From contig NW_015971545.1 of assembly GCF_000182565.1 (NCBI RefSeq), positions 124,001 to 188,000 of the forward strand: a DNA stretch of 64,000 bases, in the 5' to 3' direction. Positions 16,861 to 27,618 of the stretch are shown here, piece after piece (the first letter of the stretch is position 1; every line of letters starts with the position of its first letter). The notes beneath the pieces were generated by a model that saw only the letters and a program-made list of their open reading frames with translations, had not been told where the DNA came from and made no database searches. The position numbers and the translations under genes are program-made. The DNA is from Spizellomyces punctatus DAOM BR117. Lineage: Eukaryota > Chytridiomycota > Chytridiomycetes > Spizellomycetales > Spizellomycetaceae.

Positions 16861-19800
16861 ATGGAGTACAGCATAACCCTCTCGGGATACTGTGACCCGC
16901 ACGTTATACACTTCAACCCACGAACCGCACTGGTTATTCAGCGAGTCCGTCGTGTGGACAACCCAAACCAGACTGTAATATGCAAAGGCAATACCTTCTT
17001 CGACGAAGAAGAAAATATCAAGCTGAAACATGAATACGAAATCCTCCATCTCATCCACAGCAACTTGGCAGAAATTGAGCTGACAAGAACACAGAACCAC
17101 ACACATTCCTCTGGAACATCAAGAATACTTGCGTCCGGGAATTATTCCCGAGGGGAGCCGCTCACTCCCGTATCGGAGGATTCTTCGTTGACCCTCACAT
17201 CACCAAACACCAGCAGCACCCGACACAAACCCGGTGGACGACGACCTAGGAGCACTAGCCTCAGCCATGACAGCATTGACGGACATTTGTCAGACAGAAT
17301 TGTTAAGCCAATTTCCTTGGAAGACGTCAATGGACAATATTTTCTGATACTGGAAGACTACGGCGGCATGTCTCTACGGGAATTCGCATTGGGCAAGCGA
17401 GTGCCACGAAAAAACCAGAACACTGAATCGCCGCCAGTGAACCTCACAACGGCAAATTTAGATTTTGAAAAGACAAACTCCACCATCACCCTCCAAGCAA
17501 CCACAAGGTCGACTAATTGGATTGGAAGACTTCCTGCATATCGCTACGCAACTCGCAGAAGCGCTTGACATTGTCCATGCTGCCCAAGTCGTACACAAAG
17601 ACATTAATCCCGACAATATCGTGGTGAGGCGGGATAAGGGCCGCATAGGGGCTCAATTGATAGACTTCAACCTTGCCGAAGTGACAGATATGGGTACCCA
17701 GCCAACCCAGCGGAATTATTTGGAAGGGACTTTGGCTTACTTGTCACCAGAACAAACGGGAAGAATGCAGAGAGTAGTGGATTATCGGACAGGTAATGCT
17801 GTTAATGCCATGCATTGAACGAAAATATACTTACGCCTGCACGGATAATGTAGACTTCTATAGCTTGGGAATAACACTTTGGGAGGTGCTTGTTGGAAGT
17901 CCACCTTTTCAGTTTGACGACGCTACGGTATGGTTATAGGATGCGTTTACGAACACAGTAATTGAAACTGACAACTCTCCAGGAGTATGTACATGCCCAC
18001 CTCGCTAAGGAGATTGAGCCTGCAAATCTGCATGATCCACTCATTCCAAAGGCGTTTTCCGATATCATTAACAAAGTGGGTGTCGTTGCTTTTTCCTAAC
18101 CCCGACATTCTTTTTTCATTAATTATTGGACAACTTTTATAGCTAGTTAGCAAGGCGCCCGAAGCCCGCTATCAATCGGCATCAGGACTTCGTTTTGACT
18201 TTATGACCTGTATGCGGCGACTAAAAGAAGCTAAAGCTGCCAGACTCTGCGCAAAAGATGAAAAATTGTCAGATTTTGACATAGCCCAGATCTTCAATGA
18301 CTTTGAGTTCGATATCGCCTCCCGCGATTATTCACATCATCTCAACATTCCAGATAAACTCTATGGACGTGACCGGGAAACCAAAGAATTGCTTACGTCC
18401 TTTGAGAATGTTGCATGCGGAAAGAGTCGCAGTGAACTAGTACTAGTGTGCGGTGGAAATGGAGAGGGAAAGAGCTCCTTGATTAATCATCTCAGAAAGC
18501 ATGTAATGAGGAATCGTGGTTTTTTTGGTGAGCTGAAGAAGACTTAAAGATACGTCCATCGAGCAATGAGGTTATAACAAATTTGCCTTGAACATAGTGC
18601 GTGGCCAGTACACGGAATACAATCGGGATAAACCATTCGGAGGACTCGTACAAGCGCTAGATGAACTCATTCGCCAGCTCCTGGGAGAAACTGCTGAAGC
18701 GATGGAGAGATGGCAAAACTGTCTGAATACTACCTTGGGCCCAGAGATTTTGGCGATCGTTACGGACGTTCTTCCAGATTTGGAAATGATAGTGGGACTT
18801 CAGCAGTCTGCTGAATTGCGAGTGGATGCCACATCAGCTGAGCAGACGTCCTTCATTCGTGCTATGCAAGCTTTAATTGGCTGCTTTGCGCAAGCCGAAC
18901 ACCCACTGGTGGTCTTTTTGGATGATCTACAGGTACAGTTCTTCGTGAAAGAGCAGCTTAATGATTCAACATTCTAATTCCCCCGCTCTATGCTGGTAGT
19001 ATGCCGAGTCCGCTTCGCAAAAATTGCTGCAAGCCATTTTATTCGACAGGAGAATAGGCCATTTGCTGATAGTCGCAACACTGCCCAGCGGAAGTCCAGG
19101 AGCTGCACTGGGAGCTGCATTTGGTCCAACCGTTCAACGAATCCAGTTTGAGGCCCCTCAAAGATTACGTCGAATCGAGCTAGGGCCGCTTACTAATGCG
19201 GCGCTACGAGAAATGCTTTCCGATACTCTTAAACCCGCAGCTGAGGATATTGACGTACTGGCATCCCTAGTTTCCCGAAAGACAATGGGAAATCCACTTC
19301 ATGTCCGTGAGTTTCTTCGCTACGCGGAACAGCAAGGGTTGATCTATTTCAATGAGGTTGTTGGTGGGTGGGCTTGGGATGTTCATGAAATGGAGCGGCA
19401 GACTGTGTTGAGCGAGAACGTCGCGGACTTGCTGTTGACAAGATTGCGCCAGTTCTCGCCCGAAACTCAGACGTTACTGCAACAAGCAGGTAAGTAAACA
19501 TTTGTATCATCTTCGAATTCTTGTTATTTTAACGATCTTTGTAAATTCCTCTAGCATGTATTGGCGACTCGTTTGACCTTCGATTGCTATCGTTTCTTTC
19601 TGAGATTAGTATCGTCCAAGTGGCGACGTTGCTATGGGCGGCTGTTAAGGAGGGATTTCTCCTGCCACAATCACAAGAACCTCCACTTGCCCGCTCATTG
19701 TCAACAATCTCGAGGAGCTCCTCAGGATCCATCAATTCGCAAAATCAGAACCATTTCCGACCAGGACATAGGTCGTCCCTGTCCCTTAATAAATCCGTGG

Positions 19801-22800
19801 GAGGCATGGTCATGTCATATAAGGTACTGGATGGTCCACATTCAGCTCCTGATTGGGTGGAAACTAACGAGATCACCTACGACAGTTCTGCCACAATCGA
19901 CTCCACCGGGCTTGCTATGATATGATCGACCCTGAGGTCCGAAGAAAATGGCACTTGCAAATCGGCAGGTTATTGCGGCGGAACTTGAGCGAAGAAGAAA
20001 AGCAGGAGAACGTTTTCACTTTGGTCGCTCAATACAATGAAGTACTCGATCTTTTGACAGATCGCGAAGAGCCAGCTTATGTTGCTCGGTTAAACTATGA
20101 AGCTGGACTACGAGCGAAAAAATCAAATGCGCATCATGCTGCCCGACGATATTTTAGCATTGCCCAGTCACTACTTGGCGAGGATGATGAAGCCTGGAAG
20201 GTCAACTATGAGCAGATATTTAATATTAAAAAGGCTGTGGCGCAAGTCAATCTTGTCGAAGGTCTTTACGACGAGGCAACAGCTATACTGAAGGATCTGT
20301 GTCGCCGGGCAACGAGTGTTGGCGATCAGCTAACAGCAAGCAGCATACTCGTCAGCGCATACCATATTCAAGGGAGATTTAACGACATCATGGAAATGGG
20401 ATTTAAGGAGTTGAAAGCCTTTGATATTCCAGCTCCAGAAAACGAGCAGGATGCCATATCAATGGTCAGAGCAGAAATTAGCGAGCTTGAGCGATTAATA
20501 GCTGGTCGCAGTGAGGAGGAAGTAGCGAGAGAAGTCCGTCCTTTGGAACCGACTGTTCAGATGCTGCAGACGGTGCTGCTCTCTATCGGAAGCGCAGCGG
20601 GTTCCCTCGGACGATTATATCAATGCCAGTATTTCTACGTAAAGGTAATAAGGATTAGGTCCTTTGTGTGTGTACAGACTAACCGAAGAACTCTCCTTCA
20701 TAGGGTTGCGTGCTAGCTATGCAAAAGGGCCTCAGTCATCGAAGTGCCGAACTTTTTGCATTTGTTTTACGAGCATACGCTGGATGTCTGCCGGAGCCAG
20801 ACTTTCCACGCATGAGATGGGTATCGAAACTCTCCTTTCTCCTGATGGACAAGGCTACTCTGGAGATTCAAGCACGTGCCCGTCTGGGTTTGCTCATGAA
20901 TGGATATATCTATGTTGCCAGTTTCAAGTCCTTTGAAGAAAACGTAGAGCGCTGCATTACTGCAGGCATCGAAGCTGGGTACTACTCGGTGGTCATATAC
21001 GCGATGTGCACGTTCCCCGGGGTCCTACTTTCGTATGGACGCCCTGCTGCCGCATACAGCGAATGGCACAAAAGGTATCATCCATTTATGGAGAAATTCA
21101 AAGGATTCTTCCTGAATGTATGGAACGGTACGATCGCGGAGTTAGACGCCTTGAGCTCTGGGATCGAATGCGTATACCAGAACAGAGATGTTATGGCGAC
21201 CGGAATGACTCGTGCTCAGGTATATTATTTTCGCCTTGTAAATGCGCTGCTTTTTGAGCGCGAGGATAGGCGGATGCTGCTGGAGCAGTATAAACAAGAA
21301 GACAAAATGAATGCTTACATGGGCATACCAAGGTGGGTGTATGTGAGATCGCGCAACTTTCTCACTTGATAATATCTGATCCGAGCGGGAAATAGATACA
21401 TTGATATCTTCGTGTGGCAAGTGATAATCGCAGCATCGGAGTATAATCTTCCTAACCAGGACCGGAAACAACTTCTAAAAGAAATTGATGATGCATGTGC
21501 TATGGTCAAGAAATTTGCAGAGCAACCACCCCAGGAGATTATGTGCAAATATTACCTTGTGTCCGCCGAAAGAGTAAGCCGATCATTTACTTGTAATTGA
21601 GTCTGTAGCAGAAGATAATCATCCTCAACTGGTCAGGCAAGAATCCTCGGAGATATGACGGAAGCGAGGAATTTCTACGATAAGGCATTGGATGCCGCTC
21701 ATGAGCACGGTTTTCGGTTTCATGAAGCCCTCATAACAGAGCGCTACGGTCGTTTCTGGCTAGAAATGGGATCGAAGCGTCTAGCACGATCATGCTTACA
21801 CGACGCTTACTTTCTCTGGCACTCTTGGGGGAGCGAAGGAAAATGTAAACAATTGCAAGCACGCTACGCCGATATAATGGACCTCCACCTTCTGAACAAG
21901 GGTCTTTCTGGAACTCGGTTTGGCAGCCTTCATGGTACCACTCAACGTTCGTCCATTACGGAACAGCACAGCTCTACCACCGTCGACTTGGATTTAACCA
22001 CAGTGCTCAAGGTCACGCAGTCGATCAGCAATGAGACCAGCTTGGAAATTTTGCTGACCAAGATTATAAAGTTTGTCATGGAGAATGCCGGAGCAGAAAA
22101 AGGGATGCTCGTGCTGCAGCAAGAGGGAAAGCTGTTAATTGAAGCACTCGGAGTGATTGATGAAGGTGGCGAGCATCACGAGGTTCTTCAACATGTTCCG
22201 ATTGAGAAAGCGACGCACGAACAAGGGGTGCCACTATCTGTGGTCTACTATGTATTCCGTTCCCGCGAACCTCTGGTTTTGGTTGATGCAGTCGCGGATC
22301 AGACGTACGGTAAAGACGCATACGTCACCGAGCGGCAAACTAAAAGCATTCTGTGCTGTCCTATCGTACATCAAAACATGGCTACGGGGGTGGTCTATTT
22401 AGAGAATGACCTCCAGACTGGCGCATTTACTGCCGACCGTCTCGAGCTCATTCAGTCTTTAATGGCTGCTGCATCGATGTCGATTGAAAATGCGAAGCTT
22501 GCCAAGACCAACACTGAATTGACAGCTGCTTTGCGAGATTCTTCAACGAAGGCAACGCCACGATATAACCTCGACGGGCCCATCAAGAAGACAATTGACA
22601 TGCTCCAAGGGTTCAAATTCAGGCTACCGCCCGGTGATCCCGGCATTCGACAAATTGACTTCATTATGAAAGCATTGACCTCAACAGACTTCTTCTCCTC
22701 GAATATTGATGAGATCAACGATGAGACGGGAAAAGGCATCGATTCCGATACTAAAGTATGGATTGAAAGCTCCTTGCTTCAGAAGGAACCTAGTCGAACA

Positions 22801-24908
22801 AGGCGGGCAGATGCCAAAGAGCATATGTTTGCGAAGAAAGCTGAGGATATTTCGAAGGCATCTCTGAAAGTGATGGAGAGTCACGTAAGGCCGAGCAAAG
22901 AGATTTCGTCCATCAATATGGCAGAAGTGAACGCTCTTTTGGAGAGATCCACTTCGTTCGATTTCAACATTTACGACCTTGCGGAGGCAACTAATGGCAG
23001 GCCGCTTTTTTTCCTGGGAGTCCATCTTTTGGAATATTGGGGCTTACTGCAGCATTTCTCGCTGGACGAGATGAAGCTGCGGGCGTTTTTTGAGCAGATT
23101 GAAGGCGCATACCATCCTCTGCCATATCATAATAGGTATTTCTGTTGAGTGTTTGTGTGTACGCCAGCCCCAACTGATCATCATGTGTTTAGTACACATG
23201 GAGCGGATGTACTTCAAACCGTAAATATGCTTCTCTTAAGCGACCCCAAAATGGCAGCAAACTTTACCAAGATGGAGATATTTGCTGCATGTATTGCAAG
23301 TGCCGTACACGACGTGGACCACCCTGTGAGTAGCTCGTCGTAAGCGAAGTTGCTGTAATCGGTGGCTTACCGCATCTGTTATTCACTTTGTAGGGGCTGA
23401 ACAACAACTTCCTGGTTCAATCTTCTCATCCGCTCGCCATTTTCTATAATGATATGTCGGTATTAGAGTTCCATCATGCTGCCAAAGCGTTTGAAATTGC
23501 ACAACAACCGGAAACAAACGTGTTTGACGGACTGAATAATGACCAGTATCGAGAAGCACGGAAACTCATTATTAGCATGGTGGTTGCAACTGGTGTGTAT
23601 ATGACATGTTATTCGCTAGCTATTTTATTGATTTACCATGGAATCCCCAGATATGGCACAACATTTTCACTACATCAACAAGCTGAAGAGCAAGATCGCT
23701 GCTTCTGCTTTGAATTGGGAAGAATCTGGGGATCGCGCCTTGTTACTGGAGTGTGCGATCAAATGCGCAGACCTCAATAACTCAGCAAAGCCAATCGAGC
23801 AATCACGAAAGTGGGCGTTCCAGGTGATGCAAGAGTTCTTCCTGCAGGTGCGCAAAGCGGAAGTCATTGTGAAATATCCACAATAATGAGAATGACGATT
23901 TGTGCTGCATTAGGGTGACCGTGAACGAAAACTAGGCATGCCGGTTTCGAAATTTATGGATCGATATGATACCAACATTCCAAAATGGTATGTGGGTGGG
24001 AGGGCAAAGAATTTCCACATATTTACGTACTTAATTATTCTTGGTGATGCAGTCAAATAGGATTTATTGACATCCTCGTTGTGCCGCTCTTTGATTCTTG
24101 GTCGCAATGCATTCAGACGGACTTTTCAAGACGATGTATGGACAATATATCTCAAAACCGCAGCCATTGGGAATCCCTCTTGGATAAACCAGAAGCTATC
24201 CCAAATTTCCCCCCACCGCCGGATGAAGAGCGTGAAGACTTCCCCCTAGTTGCCCCATCAACACCCCCGTTTACACCGCAGCAGTATCTCACGGCGCCCA
24301 TCGTAGACAATATGGTGCGAATTGAATCCAAAGAACCTCCTCAACCCGCGCCCGTACGCCAAGATGCATCTGAGGGCGCAGCTGATGGCACCTTTCGATC
24401 TGTCCCTGGAATAAAACTACCAGGGGAGTTGAAGGGAAGATTGAGCAACCCACCGCAACCTATCTCAGCCCCTTCTCCTTCAAGAAATATCATAATTACA
24501 CCACGTAAAACATCAGAAACCACATCCACCACCACCACCCCCATCCCTAAAATCATCCGAAAATCCACATCAGGCGGAAACATTGCTGGGTTCGCAGAGG
24601 GAGGCAGCCGTGACGTCTGGGCACCATCAAATTCTGGACGAGAAAGAAATTATACAGCACCAGTTTCAGCCCGACGACGGTCGAGTGCAGGTGTTGGCGC
24701 ACTAGCGTCGGATTCAACAGTGCCCAAAATACCCGGAAAACTACTATTACCAGCGTTACCAAAATCTACCTCGGCCAGTAGTTTTGACCGAGAACTAGAT
24801 AACACTCCCGACGGATTGCAAAACCTCCCAAAACCACGTCCAATAGCACGATCTGGCCAAGATGGCAAGCCTCCAGGAAACGGCCGACCAAAAGGAGTAA
24901 CGTCGTGA
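16861..24908 (+). CDS. Protein kinase-AAA-TPR-GAF-class I cyclic nucleotide phosphodiesterase fusion
   Basis: I assemble 17 exons with agreeing phases, 7,041 coding bases, 2,346 residues. Residues 1-345: protein kinase-like domain with HKDINPDN near 223 and IDFNLAE near 246, followed by FYSLGITLWEVL. Residues 400-900: a large NTPase domain with P-loop GGNGEGKSSL near 449, a DDLQYAESAS block, and the KFCHNRLHRACYDMID element. Residues 900-1460: helical (TPR-like) repeats ending in the 'W...G...K...L' pattern. GAF at 1478-1650 (GAEKGMLVLQ, SILCCPIV, GVVYLEN). All of these are typical of the N-terminal half of large fungal hybrid histidine kinases. Instead of H-box, HATPase and receiver, residues 1795-2105 are a PDE: PYHNSTHGADV, HDVDHPGLNNNF, TDMAQHFHYINK, CADLNNSAKP. 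A Pro/Ser-rich tail follows. It probably hydrolyses cAMP or cGMP under control of the front domains. Confidence 0.88.
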
Positions 24909-25366
24909 TATTTCTATGACCTCAATATTTTCAGCTGCTTCCAATTTATTCATTTGCTGTGGTTCACGGGACCGTAGAAAGTAGGGTTTTTTGATTTTGA
25001 TATTTTCTAATATAAGACGATGTGTTGATTGTTGAGGATCTCTTAGTTTGTTTATAATGATTCCGTAAGCGATGTCCAGAGTTGCGGACGCGAGCCGTTT
25101 TCATGGCAACGCCAGGAGGCCAGAGAGCACAGGCAATACTTATCCTTCTCGATAATCTTGGAAATAGCGCAGCACACCTTCTCGCCCTCACTTTGACTGT
25201 TTATTGTACGTGACATGTCGATTGCAGATGGGCACAGGATCTGTTGGCATATTGTAAAGGAATATTCACGCTAGTTTTATCTTCGCGCGCTCTTCACAGG
25301 TACAAGATCGCCGACACGATTACCAGAAACTTGTTTAAACAGTACAATCCCCGCAAGTAGATCAAA
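24909..25366. other. Intergenic between PDE fusion and CCT3
   Basis: About 460 bases. The first part is the 3' flank of the PDE-fusion gene. The rest should hold the CCT3 promoter. A minus-strand frame at 24964-25191 is open but I see no support for it. Confidence 0.45.
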
Positions 25367-27458
25367 ATGCAGGTCCCGGTGATGGTTATGAGTAAGTTGA
25401 TGATACGGATGTTTCACCTGTCCTGTACACTGGATTTACGTTTCCCGTGCACTAGACGCGAACATGGAGCGGGAGACAGGCCGAAAAGCCCAGCTCTCGA
25501 ACATCCAGTCAGCAAAGGTGTGGATTTACGTCTGAATTTGCATGGGAAGCATATGGTTGGCGCTGCAGTTATACGTTGCTAATGATGGTGATTGAAGGTG
25601 ATCGCCGATATTATCCGAACGTGCTTGGGTCCCCGCGCTATGTTGAAGATGTTGTTGGATCCCATGGGCGGTATTGTCATGACGAACGATGGAAATGCCA
25701 TTCTACGAGAAGTAGAAGTGGCTCACCCAGCAGCGAAGTCCATGATTGAGCTCGCAAGAACTCAGGATGAGGAAGTTGGAGATGGGACAACTAGTGTGAT
25801 TATCCTTGGTCAGTTCTCAACGGTGATTCTTTTCTGCGCGGCTTTCTCACAGGGACGTGATTTCCAAAACAGCTGGTGAAGTTCTGACCGCGGCACTTCC
25901 TTTTCTGGAGCGTAACATACACCCTATTACCATTATTGGGGCTTACAAGCGCGCATTGGAGGATGCACTGAACATTATGAAGGATATATCAATTGAGGTC
26001 GATATAAGCAACAAGCCGGAAATGATGCGCATTATCAAATCCACTATTGGAACAAAGTTCGTATCGAGATGGAGCGATTTGATGTGCGGACTGGCGTATG
26101 ATGCCGTCAAGACGGTGAACCTGGAGATCGACGGAAAGCGTGAGGTAGACATTAAGCGCTATGCTCGTGTGGAAAAGGTATACTCTATTGAAAAGAGATA
26201 TGTGCTTTTTGGTGCTGAACACCGCGCGTTTTTCAGATACCTGGTGGGGAGATTGACGAGTCAAAGGTTTTGGACGGTATCATGGTCAACAAGGATGTCA
26301 CACATCCCAAGATGCGCAGGAAGATCGAGAACCCTAGGATCGTGCTCCTCGATTGCCCACTTGAATACAAAAAGGGAGAGTCGCAGACGAATGTGGAGGT
26401 GACGGACGAATCGCACTGGTCGCGTCTGCTGGAGATCGAAGAAGAACAGATTAAAGAGATGTGTGACCACATCATTCGCTTGAAACCTGATCTTGTATTC
26501 ACCGAAAAAGGGGTCAGCGGTAGGTATTGTGTGATTCCGGCTGATTCTGTGAACACTACCTGATGATTCGTCTTATAGACTTGGCTCAACATTTCCTGAT
26601 GAAATCCAACATCACTGCTATCCGCCGAGTCCGCAAGACCGACAATCACCGTATTGCTCGGGCCACTGGCGCTACCATTGTGAATCGAGTAGAGGACTTG
26701 AAGGACTCCGATGTCGGCACACAATGCGGTCTCTTTGAAGTTCGCAAGATTGCCGATGAATACTTCACTTTCCTCGAAAAGTGTGAAAATCCTAAGGCTT
26801 GCACAATCTTGCTCCGTGGACCCAGTAAAGATGTTCTACAGGAGATTGACAGGAATTTGCAAGATGCTATGTGCGTTGCCCGGAATGTCATGTTCGAGCC
26901 GCGCCTTTGCCCCGGGGGTGGTGCGACAGAGATGGCCCTTGCCGTCCGCCTCGGTGAGAAGGCGAAAACTATTTCTGGAGTGGAACAATGGCCGTACAAA
27001 GCCGTTGCGGAAGCTTTAGAAGTCATCCCACGTACTTTGGTACAAAACTGTGGTGGAAACGCCATCAAAACATTGACGCAGCTCAGGGTATGAGATTTCT
27101 GTATCGGTTTATCCACCAAGACCTACATTCTGACCTGTTTCTCTTAGGCGAAGCATGCAACCGTGGACAACTTCTCTTGGGGTATTGACGGGGAGAGCGG
27201 CAAGATCGTGGATATGCAAGAATACGGTGTTTGGGAGCCACACGCTGTCAAGGCGCAAACAGTGAAGACTGCTATCGAGTCGGCATGTTTGCTCCTCCGA
27301 GTAGATGACATTGTGTCCGGTTTGTCAAGGAAGGAGGCTGGTGGCGGTGGGCAAGCTCCCGCCATGCAGGAAGCACCTGAGGTGAGGTCACCATAGACTT
27401 TGCATCCAACTCGCGGTTGCTCACTGATTTCTCGTTGCAGGAGGTTGGTGAGCGCTAG
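25367..27458 (+). CDS. CCT3: T-complex chaperonin subunit gamma (CCT3)
   Basis: The gene starts MQVPVMVMNANMERETGRKA and runs through about eight short introns to ...EEVGER and TAG at 27456. It carries group II chaperonin signatures in order: IIRTCLGPRAMLKMLLDPMG, then MTNDGNAILRE, then QDEEVGDGTTSVIIL (ATP site, with GDGTTS), and near the C-terminus CPGGGATEMALA, the usual 'PGGGA.E'. The gamma subunit is recognised by KGVSDLAQHFLMKSNITAIR, by NANMERETGRKAQLSNIQ, and by GIDGESGKIVDM. It is part of the eight-member cytosolic ring that folds actin and tubulin. The second exon is only about 70 bases, so the 25367 start was chosen by splicing 'A|AC GCG AAC ATG'. The gene is ordinary and intact. 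Confidence 0.95.
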
Positions 27459-27618
27459 AGGCTAGTTTTCGACATTCGATTGAGTGAGTTGTCACCATGG
27501 TCTAGTCCAGACTGTGTTTGTACAAAGGGGGATTTTGAATGAGATGGGTCTATAATAAGAGTGTGCAAAGTTGTTAAAAGCTGATCTGTTTAAACATGTA
27601 CAATGGAGGTCAGACATT

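Follow-up and report, generated by a model that had tools for sequence, protein, structure and literature searches.

A kinase–AAA–GAF head joined to a class I phosphodiesterase in a single chain in Spizellomyces punctatus and other chytrids

We analyzed a stretch of 64,000 nucleotides (the window; C9:124001-188000) of the 24.0 Mb genome of Spizellomyces punctatus. On its forward strand, at window positions 16861..24908, lies a single gene that joins a head composed of a protein kinase, an AAA-type nucleoside triphosphatase (NTPase), helical repeats and a GAF domain to a class I cyclic-nucleotide phosphodiesterase (PDE). The architecture of this sensor-PDE gene is firm.

Gene structure and domain organization

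The coding region comprises 17 exons and 16 GT-AG introns of 43-68 nucleotides, all in frame, and encodes 2355 amino acids with a stop at 24908. Rebuilding the exons confirmed the single gene joined in phase that a preliminary description of the locus had proposed, with the junctions 21573/21637 and 23135/23193 at the positions claimed. Residues 1490-2110 are 100% identical to the public protein P0001 of Spizellomyces punctatus DAOM BR117 (Spizellomycetales, Chytridiomycota). Compared up to near the C terminus, P0001 (2310 amino acids) is the same chain except for three short gaps in its head. It lacks the last 12 residues of exon 1, which is 12 codons shorter in the public model, a further 9 where exons 5 and 6 meet, and 24 within exon 8. 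These sum to the difference and account for it fully. P0001 is named "serine/threonine protein kinase" by NCBI and "Phosphodiesterase" by UniRef; neither name conveys the domain combination.

A Pfam scan placed four domain families above the cut-off. Exon 1 (16861..17436) encodes the kinase N-lobe with β3 Lys 42, and the kinase core (Pkinase, residues 201-362, E = 6e-23; 17522..18190, exons 2-5) carries Asp227 in an HKDINPDN loop and Asp248 in a DFN motif. It is followed by an AAA_16 NTPase (residues 418-620, E = 1e-25; 18356..19074, exons 5-7) with Walker A Lys456 and Walker B Asp592/593, and by a helical TPR-like stretch (residues ~860-1500; 19919..22026, exons 9-12), which is weak by sequence (TPR_MalT, E = 0.0035, below the cut-off) and modelled as helices in its exon-12 part. 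The GAF domain (residues 1506-1653, E = 9e-13; 22042..22485) is separated by a linker (residues 1660-1866; 22504..23124) from the PDE (PDEase_I, residues 1867-2093, E = 2e-83, 280 bits; 23125..24119, exons 12-17), and a poorly conserved C-terminal tail (residues 2115-2355; 24183..24905) ends the chain. All of these features lie on the forward strand, and their order is the one previously claimed. Exon 12 (21637..23135) contains the fusion point, with the end of the repeats, the GAF, the linker and the start of the PDE in a single open frame. Its 1499 bases hold no stop in the coding frame versus 21 and 31 in the other two, and none of 2000 base shuffles (0/2000) remained open.

The scan found no HisKA, HATPase_c or Response_reg in the whole protein at E<=0.1, in line with the earlier statement that the H-box, HATPase and receiver are missing. 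Profile searches of the genome, which score the best candidates only, exon by exon, and whose counts are lower bounds, likewise placed no HATPase_c at C9:140861-148908 and no Response_reg on contig C9. Between the GAF and the PDE no Pfam family matched even at E<=10. An AlphaFold model of exon 12 (499 amino acids, 42 rows, mean predicted local distance difference test score, pLDDT, of 82.7) begins with paired helices at the end of the repeat stretch and continues with the GAF, a long helix leaving it (model residues 266-304, protein residues ~1636-1674), helices 313-329, 335-348 and 370-380, a low-confidence stretch (382-423) and the first PDE helices. The linker is thus mostly helical in the model, with no alpha/beta ATPase fold. 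The objection that a HATPase might be hidden between GAF and PDE therefore fails, and this candidate was rejected. As judged by profiles and model, the phosphorelay modules are absent from the single chain.

Across the 50 Foldseek rows listed for the exon-12 model, TMq stayed <0.3 and hardly anything outside the GAF was aligned; these matches therefore support only the assignment of a GAF. For the relative P0232 from Physocladia (925 amino acids, mean pLDDT 76.8), the model showed the same order and ended in a helical PDE, and Foldseek ranked PDE4 first.

Distribution among chytrids

A protein search with residues 1490-2110 gave 130 matches, the best 120 of which were listed. Pkinase, AAA_16, GAF and PDEase_I were found together in one chain in 26 of these 120 proteins, including P0001, from 22 chytrid taxa. 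The fusion is therefore no gene-model error, and a single fused gene, rather than two separate ones, is upheld by both this recurrence and the stop-free exon 12. Eight species were looked up; their orders are Spizellomycetales, Rhizophlyctidales, Lobulomycetales, Chytridiales, Cladochytriales and Rhizophydiales, with Quaeritorhiza given without order. The Chytridiales members are Obelidium and Zopfochytrium, the short Zopfochytrium model P0027 lying outside the 26. Among the matches listed, Blyttiomyces, Polyrhizophydium, Cladochytrium and Entophlyctis helioformis have two copies each. None of P0001-P0032 carries HisKA, HATPase_c or Response_reg by Pfam, and no row outside P0001-P0032 among the 120 combines AAA_16 with PDEase_I. 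No fused layout came from Batrachochytrium, Synchytrium, Gonapodya or Neocallimastix among the matches listed, though their PDEs appear, which is not proof of absence.

Median identity to the S. punctatus protein was 71.4% for the PDE (covered by 26 of 31 rows), 57.5% for the linker core (31 rows), 52.5% for the kinase (27) and 51.4% for the GAF (31), compared with 28.8% for the AAA domain (28), 26.0% for the tail (14) and 25.6% for the repeats (30). P0029, a chytrid protein with GAF and PDE that lacks the head, was excluded from this conservation alignment, the head residue counts, the head tree and the GAF motif count.

The preliminary description knew of no described protein with this layout. 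Databases hold the layout for the 22 taxa, so the statement stands only for the literature: no published description of a kinase-AAA-GAF-PDE layout was found in the titles, abstract beginnings and passages of open-access PMC papers.

Relatives of the kinase/NTPase head

With residues 150-860 of P0001 as query, 7526 matches were obtained. Among the best 120, the top ranks belong to S. punctatus, its nearest kin (P0002-P0007, P0010) and, outside that kin, Quaeritorhiza, followed by non-chytrid proteins with 35-39% identity over 97-100% of the query; no Dikarya protein is present. Among the first four non-chytrid heads, P0121, P0123 and P0124 belong to proteins with head, GAF and class III cyclase, and most of those that follow are cyanobacterial histidine kinases. 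The related non-chytrid heads are probably bacterial, judging by this company, and P0168 is named Pseudomonadota. Besides histidine kinases, the outputs on related heads listed are class III cyclase (at least 12 proteins), SpoIIE (at least 8), GGDEF (at least 3) and sigma-54 (at least 2), while PDEase_I is on none of the bacterial-type heads among the matches listed. The earlier label of a hybrid-histidine-kinase front half thus captures a real resemblance to these large proteins but is too narrow, since the same head also carries the other outputs. The chytrid protein family is a new output on a known head.

Head and class III cyclase are combined in P0054, P0062, P0075, P0088, P0094, P0121, P0123, P0124, P0131, P0168, P0179 and P0200; P0121 and P0168 also carry HNOBA. 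In a midpoint-rooted FastTree phylogeny of 212 heads (212 of 219 rows kept; P0012, P0018, P0027 and four others left out for low coverage), 29 of the 32 chytrid heads form one clade with support 1.0, and the cyclase-linked heads are scattered (12 rows, with a common ancestor spanning 165). The tree does not single out a nearest bacterial group, because the chytrid branch is long and the bacterial sample consists only of the best-scoring rows listed.

Fungal hybrid histidine kinases of the Chk1/Mak2/Mak3 type constitute group X. In Candida albicans Chk1p, the passages seen of PMC9069115 place S_Tkc at 435-636, AAA-16 at 689-894 and GAF at 1828-1975, followed by HisK-ATPase-REC, and passages of the same paper and of PMC5383687 give S. 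pombe Mak2 and Mak3 the same extra domains. Compared by the layout published in those passages (PMC9069115), this type and the S. punctatus protein both run from a Ser/Thr kinase through AAA-16 to a GAF, with ~900 residues from AAA to GAF. The fungal type, however, ends in HisKA-HATPase-REC, whereas in the S. punctatus protein the GAF is followed by a PDE, without phosphorelay parts. Bacterial trifunctional Ser/Thr kinase/ATPase/sensor histidine kinases of the HstK class, a kinase-histidine kinase fusion long known according to passages of PMC1262709 and PMC2176072 that cite it, have the same head at the identity given above; their output is a histidine kinase or one of the other modules named, in contrast to the PDEase_I of S. 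punctatus.

The phosphodiesterase and its upstream region

The PDE metal-site motifs had been described as intact. In the 32-row chytrid alignment the critical residues are indeed kept in every row with a letter: His1868 (30/30), His1872 (31/31), His1909 (31/31), Asp1910 (31/31), Asp2021 (27/27), Asn2024 (27/27) and Gln2072 (23/23). With its His/Asp metal site and glutamine, the domain belongs to the class I cyclic-nucleotide PDEs and is predicted to hydrolyze cyclic AMP (cAMP) or cyclic GMP (cGMP).

A PDE tree (156 of 158 rows kept, 153 entered; P0010 and P0030 not included) groups the fused PDEs in one clade with support 1.0, made up of 29 fused rows and 8 shorter models (chytrid by name in 7 cases). 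Its sister group (support 0.989) consists of seven other PDEs, three with an ANF_receptor region. These three chytrid proteins, P0240 (ANF_receptor 3-215, E = 5.5e-21, before PDE 697-926), P0248 (ANF_receptor 82-305, E = 1.8e-15; PDE 742-973) and P0263 (ANF_receptor plus PDE by Pfam), are possible receptor-phosphodiesterases. In Entophlyctis luteolus, the predicted proteins P0036 and P0037 each combine PDEase_I with P-type ATPase domains, which may reflect a merged gene model.

A profile built from linker residues 1670-1765 was run in two rounds against 130 PDE proteins, with the best 60 matches listed in round 1. It matched stand-alone chytrid PDEs from Irineochytrium (2e-11), Synchytrium (7e-11), Gonapodya (5e-8) and Batrachochytrium (1e-6), which have in common with the S. 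punctatus linker this region upstream of the catalytic domain. Animal PDE8 rows also matched upstream of the PDE in round 1 (E = 1e-4 to 4e-4), and in round 2 five PDE4/PDE1 controls gave E>=0.12 or no match. The matches to stand-alone chytrid PDEs and PDE8 make it probable that the PDE brought its upstream region with it. The earlier proposal would have sensing wired straight into cAMP or cGMP breakdown, but the join is not bare: a region like those preceding the PDE in stand-alone chytrid PDEs and, modestly, in animal PDE8 lies between GAF and PDE.

Linker and catalytic domain are together 31-35% identical to animal PDE8, a PAS-PDE with a modestly similar region upstream of its catalytic domain. 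PDE8, however, carries PDE8A_N and PAS (PDE8B row P0349), both absent from the S. punctatus protein at E<=0.1 by Pfam; the kinase-AAA-GAF head takes their place, and the GAF occupies the position of the PAS.

Proposed coupling of the head to the phosphodiesterase

We consider it probable, at roughly two chances in three, that the protein is a single-chain sensor-PDE, in which the kinase/NTPase/repeat/GAF head, joined through the conserved linker to the class I PDE, likely gates cAMP breakdown. A ligand, ATP or the redox state would alter the head, and the change would travel down the long helix leaving the GAF into the linker and alter PDE activity, with the coupling probably taking place in a dimer. 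With cAMP as the proposed substrate, the activity of protein kinase A would consequently fall.

Several observations weigh against this interpretation. The coupling itself is proposed from co-conservation and analogy, and the choice of substrate is uncertain. S. punctatus and most rows retain the kinase motif, which is compatible with an active kinase output. P0029 holds GAF and PDE without the head, and six chytrid models are shorter or minus a domain (P0002, P0012, P0016, P0018, P0027 and P0033); these six are probably gene-model gaps. Near the metal site, P0027 has HDVNH for HDVDH and P0028 has HSSTH for HNSTH. The linker match to PDE8 is modest (E ~1e-4) and not specific to PDE8, with P0280 (1e-5) and P0042 (8e-5) also matching, and the PDE8-like row P0041 matched downstream of the PDE motif. 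Round 2 is partly circular for PDE8, with PDE8 rows P0315 and P0321 (E = 9.6e-5) in the profile, the PDE4/PDE1 controls were read in round 2 only, and a linker-only BLASTP gave no animal PDE8 row among the matches listed.

The strongest competing explanation is that the head acts chiefly as a scaffold or as a protein kinase in its own right, and that the PDE is constitutive and localized such that cAMP is broken down near the kinase targets. All kinase and Walker residues are present in S. punctatus, with DFN in place of DFG (bacterial-type rows have DFS in 125/187 and DFG in 40/187), and kinase and NTPase may be active in this species and its near kin. Among chytrid rows with a letter, the HxD aspartate, the catalytic Asp227, is kept in 24/28, which together with repeats suited to protein binding favors a scaffold or kinase. 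The DFx aspartate is kept in 22/28 and the Walker A lysine in 25/28, but Walker B Asp592 in only 14/27. At the same positions the bacterial-type rows P0044-P0230 keep 167/183, 167/183, 182/184 and 184/186, respectively. Kinase residues are lost in Boothiomyces, Terramyces, Globomyces, Entophlyctis helioformis and one Polyrhizophydium copy, and Walker A in Siphonaria, Obelidium and one E. helioformis copy. The Boothiomyces/Terramyces copies P0022-P0024 argue against a kinase or scaffold role, as their kinase positions read K to Y, D to N and D to N while the PDE residues are retained; moreover, GAF and conserved linker directly precede the PDE, as PAS does in PDE8. We regard this explanation as unlikely, at somewhat under one chance in five. 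The decay of kinase and NTPase in other chytrids suggests that the conserved job of the head is PDE regulation, and we infer that the conservation pattern is better explained by a head retained to regulate the PDE than by a PDE retained to serve the kinase.

As to the substrate, the sequence favors cAMP. The closest named solved PDEs, among the best 60 of 151 matches, are the cAMP-specific PDE4, PDE8 and PDE7, and Asn2024, which aligns to the asparagine of PDE4 ADLSN, is invariant along with Gln2072. A PDE degrading cGMP, or both nucleotides, would fit a cGMP pathway like the one described for a zoosporic fungus, where a rhodopsin-guanylyl cyclase gene fusion is reported to function (PMC4046227), and several class III cyclase matches in S. 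punctatus might make either nucleotide. Against these named relatives and conserved residues, however, we rate such an enzyme as distinctly improbable.

The preliminary description noted that animal PDEs carry GAF domains. In animal GAF-PDEs (PDE2, 5, 6, 10 and 11) a GAF likewise precedes the PDE, and Foldseek matches of the exon-12 model include the GAFs of PDE5, 6, 2 and 10 and the cAMP-bound GAF 5w10. The type of GAF is, however, different. The NKFDE motif marks cyclic-nucleotide-binding GAFs, as stated in passages of PMC11977230, whereas the corresponding S. punctatus positions read N-D-F-R-L. The Asp position is Arg in 32/32 chytrid rows and in 176/187 bacterial-type rows, and the Glu that should follow occurs in 0/32 chytrid rows. 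The GAF region also aligned with bacterial histidine kinases in the protein search, and by sequence the GAF is of the bacterial/histidine-kinase type. Because Arg stands at the Asp position, it probably does not read cAMP or cGMP; an animal-type GAF was rejected, and an ordinary GAF-PDE switched by cyclic nucleotide on its GAF is very improbable. That two adjacent genes were wrongly merged was likewise rejected and has a negligible probability, given a GAF-PDE join inside one open exon and the same chain in other chytrid genomes.

Genomic context

Of at least 26 matches from a search of the S. punctatus genome with the head, 10 fall within the sensor-PDE gene, 15 are weak and concern the kinase part, and one is a GAF; this search therefore showed no second head. 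The GAF, the sole non-kinase match outside the gene, belongs to an open reading frame on C26 (~66862-67919; L056:409-2350) with GAF and class III cyclase exons and a putatively FHA-like N terminus. This cyclase is a possible maker of the messenger degraded by the PDE. The genome has at least 25 cNMP-binding domain places and at least 14 class III cyclase places, and three class III cyclase matches lie within 8 kb at C13:298938-306581, on both strands.

The genome holds at least 37 HATPase_c and at least 43 Response_reg places, and not every HATPase_c protein is a histidine kinase. All AAA_16 places (at least 15) are 31 kb or more away from each of the 37 HATPase_c places, and hence no Chk1-type histidine kinase was seen in the genome. 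No receiver was found near any of eight PDE loci (contigs C3 and C9 are without receiver, and elsewhere the nearest is ~90 kb or more away), so that no RegA-like gene was seen. With no receiver in the chain either, a RegA-like protein was rejected. Downstream of the sensor-PDE gene, at window positions 25361-27480 on the forward strand, open frames resemble those of the chaperonin subunit CCT gamma.

Discussion

RegA links environmental sensing to the breakdown of cAMP in Dictyostelium and Acanthamoeba, as we propose for the S. punctatus protein. The RegA receiver is phosphorylated via separate sensor histidine kinases, according to passages of PMC3906536, whereas sensor and PDE of the S. punctatus protein form one chain without a receiver. 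RegA integrates stress signals and governs encystation in amoebae (passages of PMC3906536), and by this analogy a role in zoospore encystment or germination would be a reasonable first test. For the related fungal heads, passages of PMC9069115 attribute peroxide sensing to Mak2/Mak3, and those of PMC5383687 report a mak2/mak3 double mutant that is not peroxide-sensitive.

We tentatively suggest, at slightly less than even chances, that an early chytrid made a one-component cAMP switch out of a two-component stress receptor, whose Chk1-type head exchanged the histidine kinase and receiver for a PDE8-like enzyme. If so, the chytrid protein would mirror the bacterial proteins that join the head to a cyclase, as these would produce the messenger it destroys. 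Surveys that search by histidine-kinase domains would also overlook the converted receptor. One on early-fungal histidine kinases (PMC5285503) would miss the sensor-PDE protein, as its search, in the passages seen, relied on HisKA, HATPase_c and REC.

The sensor-PDE represents a large receptor module whose output has switched from phosphorelay to second-messenger breakdown and that has been kept in many chytrids. It would account for a connection between this module and cAMP in chytrids that needs no RegA-type protein, and sensing by the Chk1-type head would become testable, with its output readable as a simple PDE assay. If the suggested conversion took place, a signal that other fungi relay by phosphorelay to a mitogen-activated protein (MAP) kinase would directly set cAMP in chytrids.

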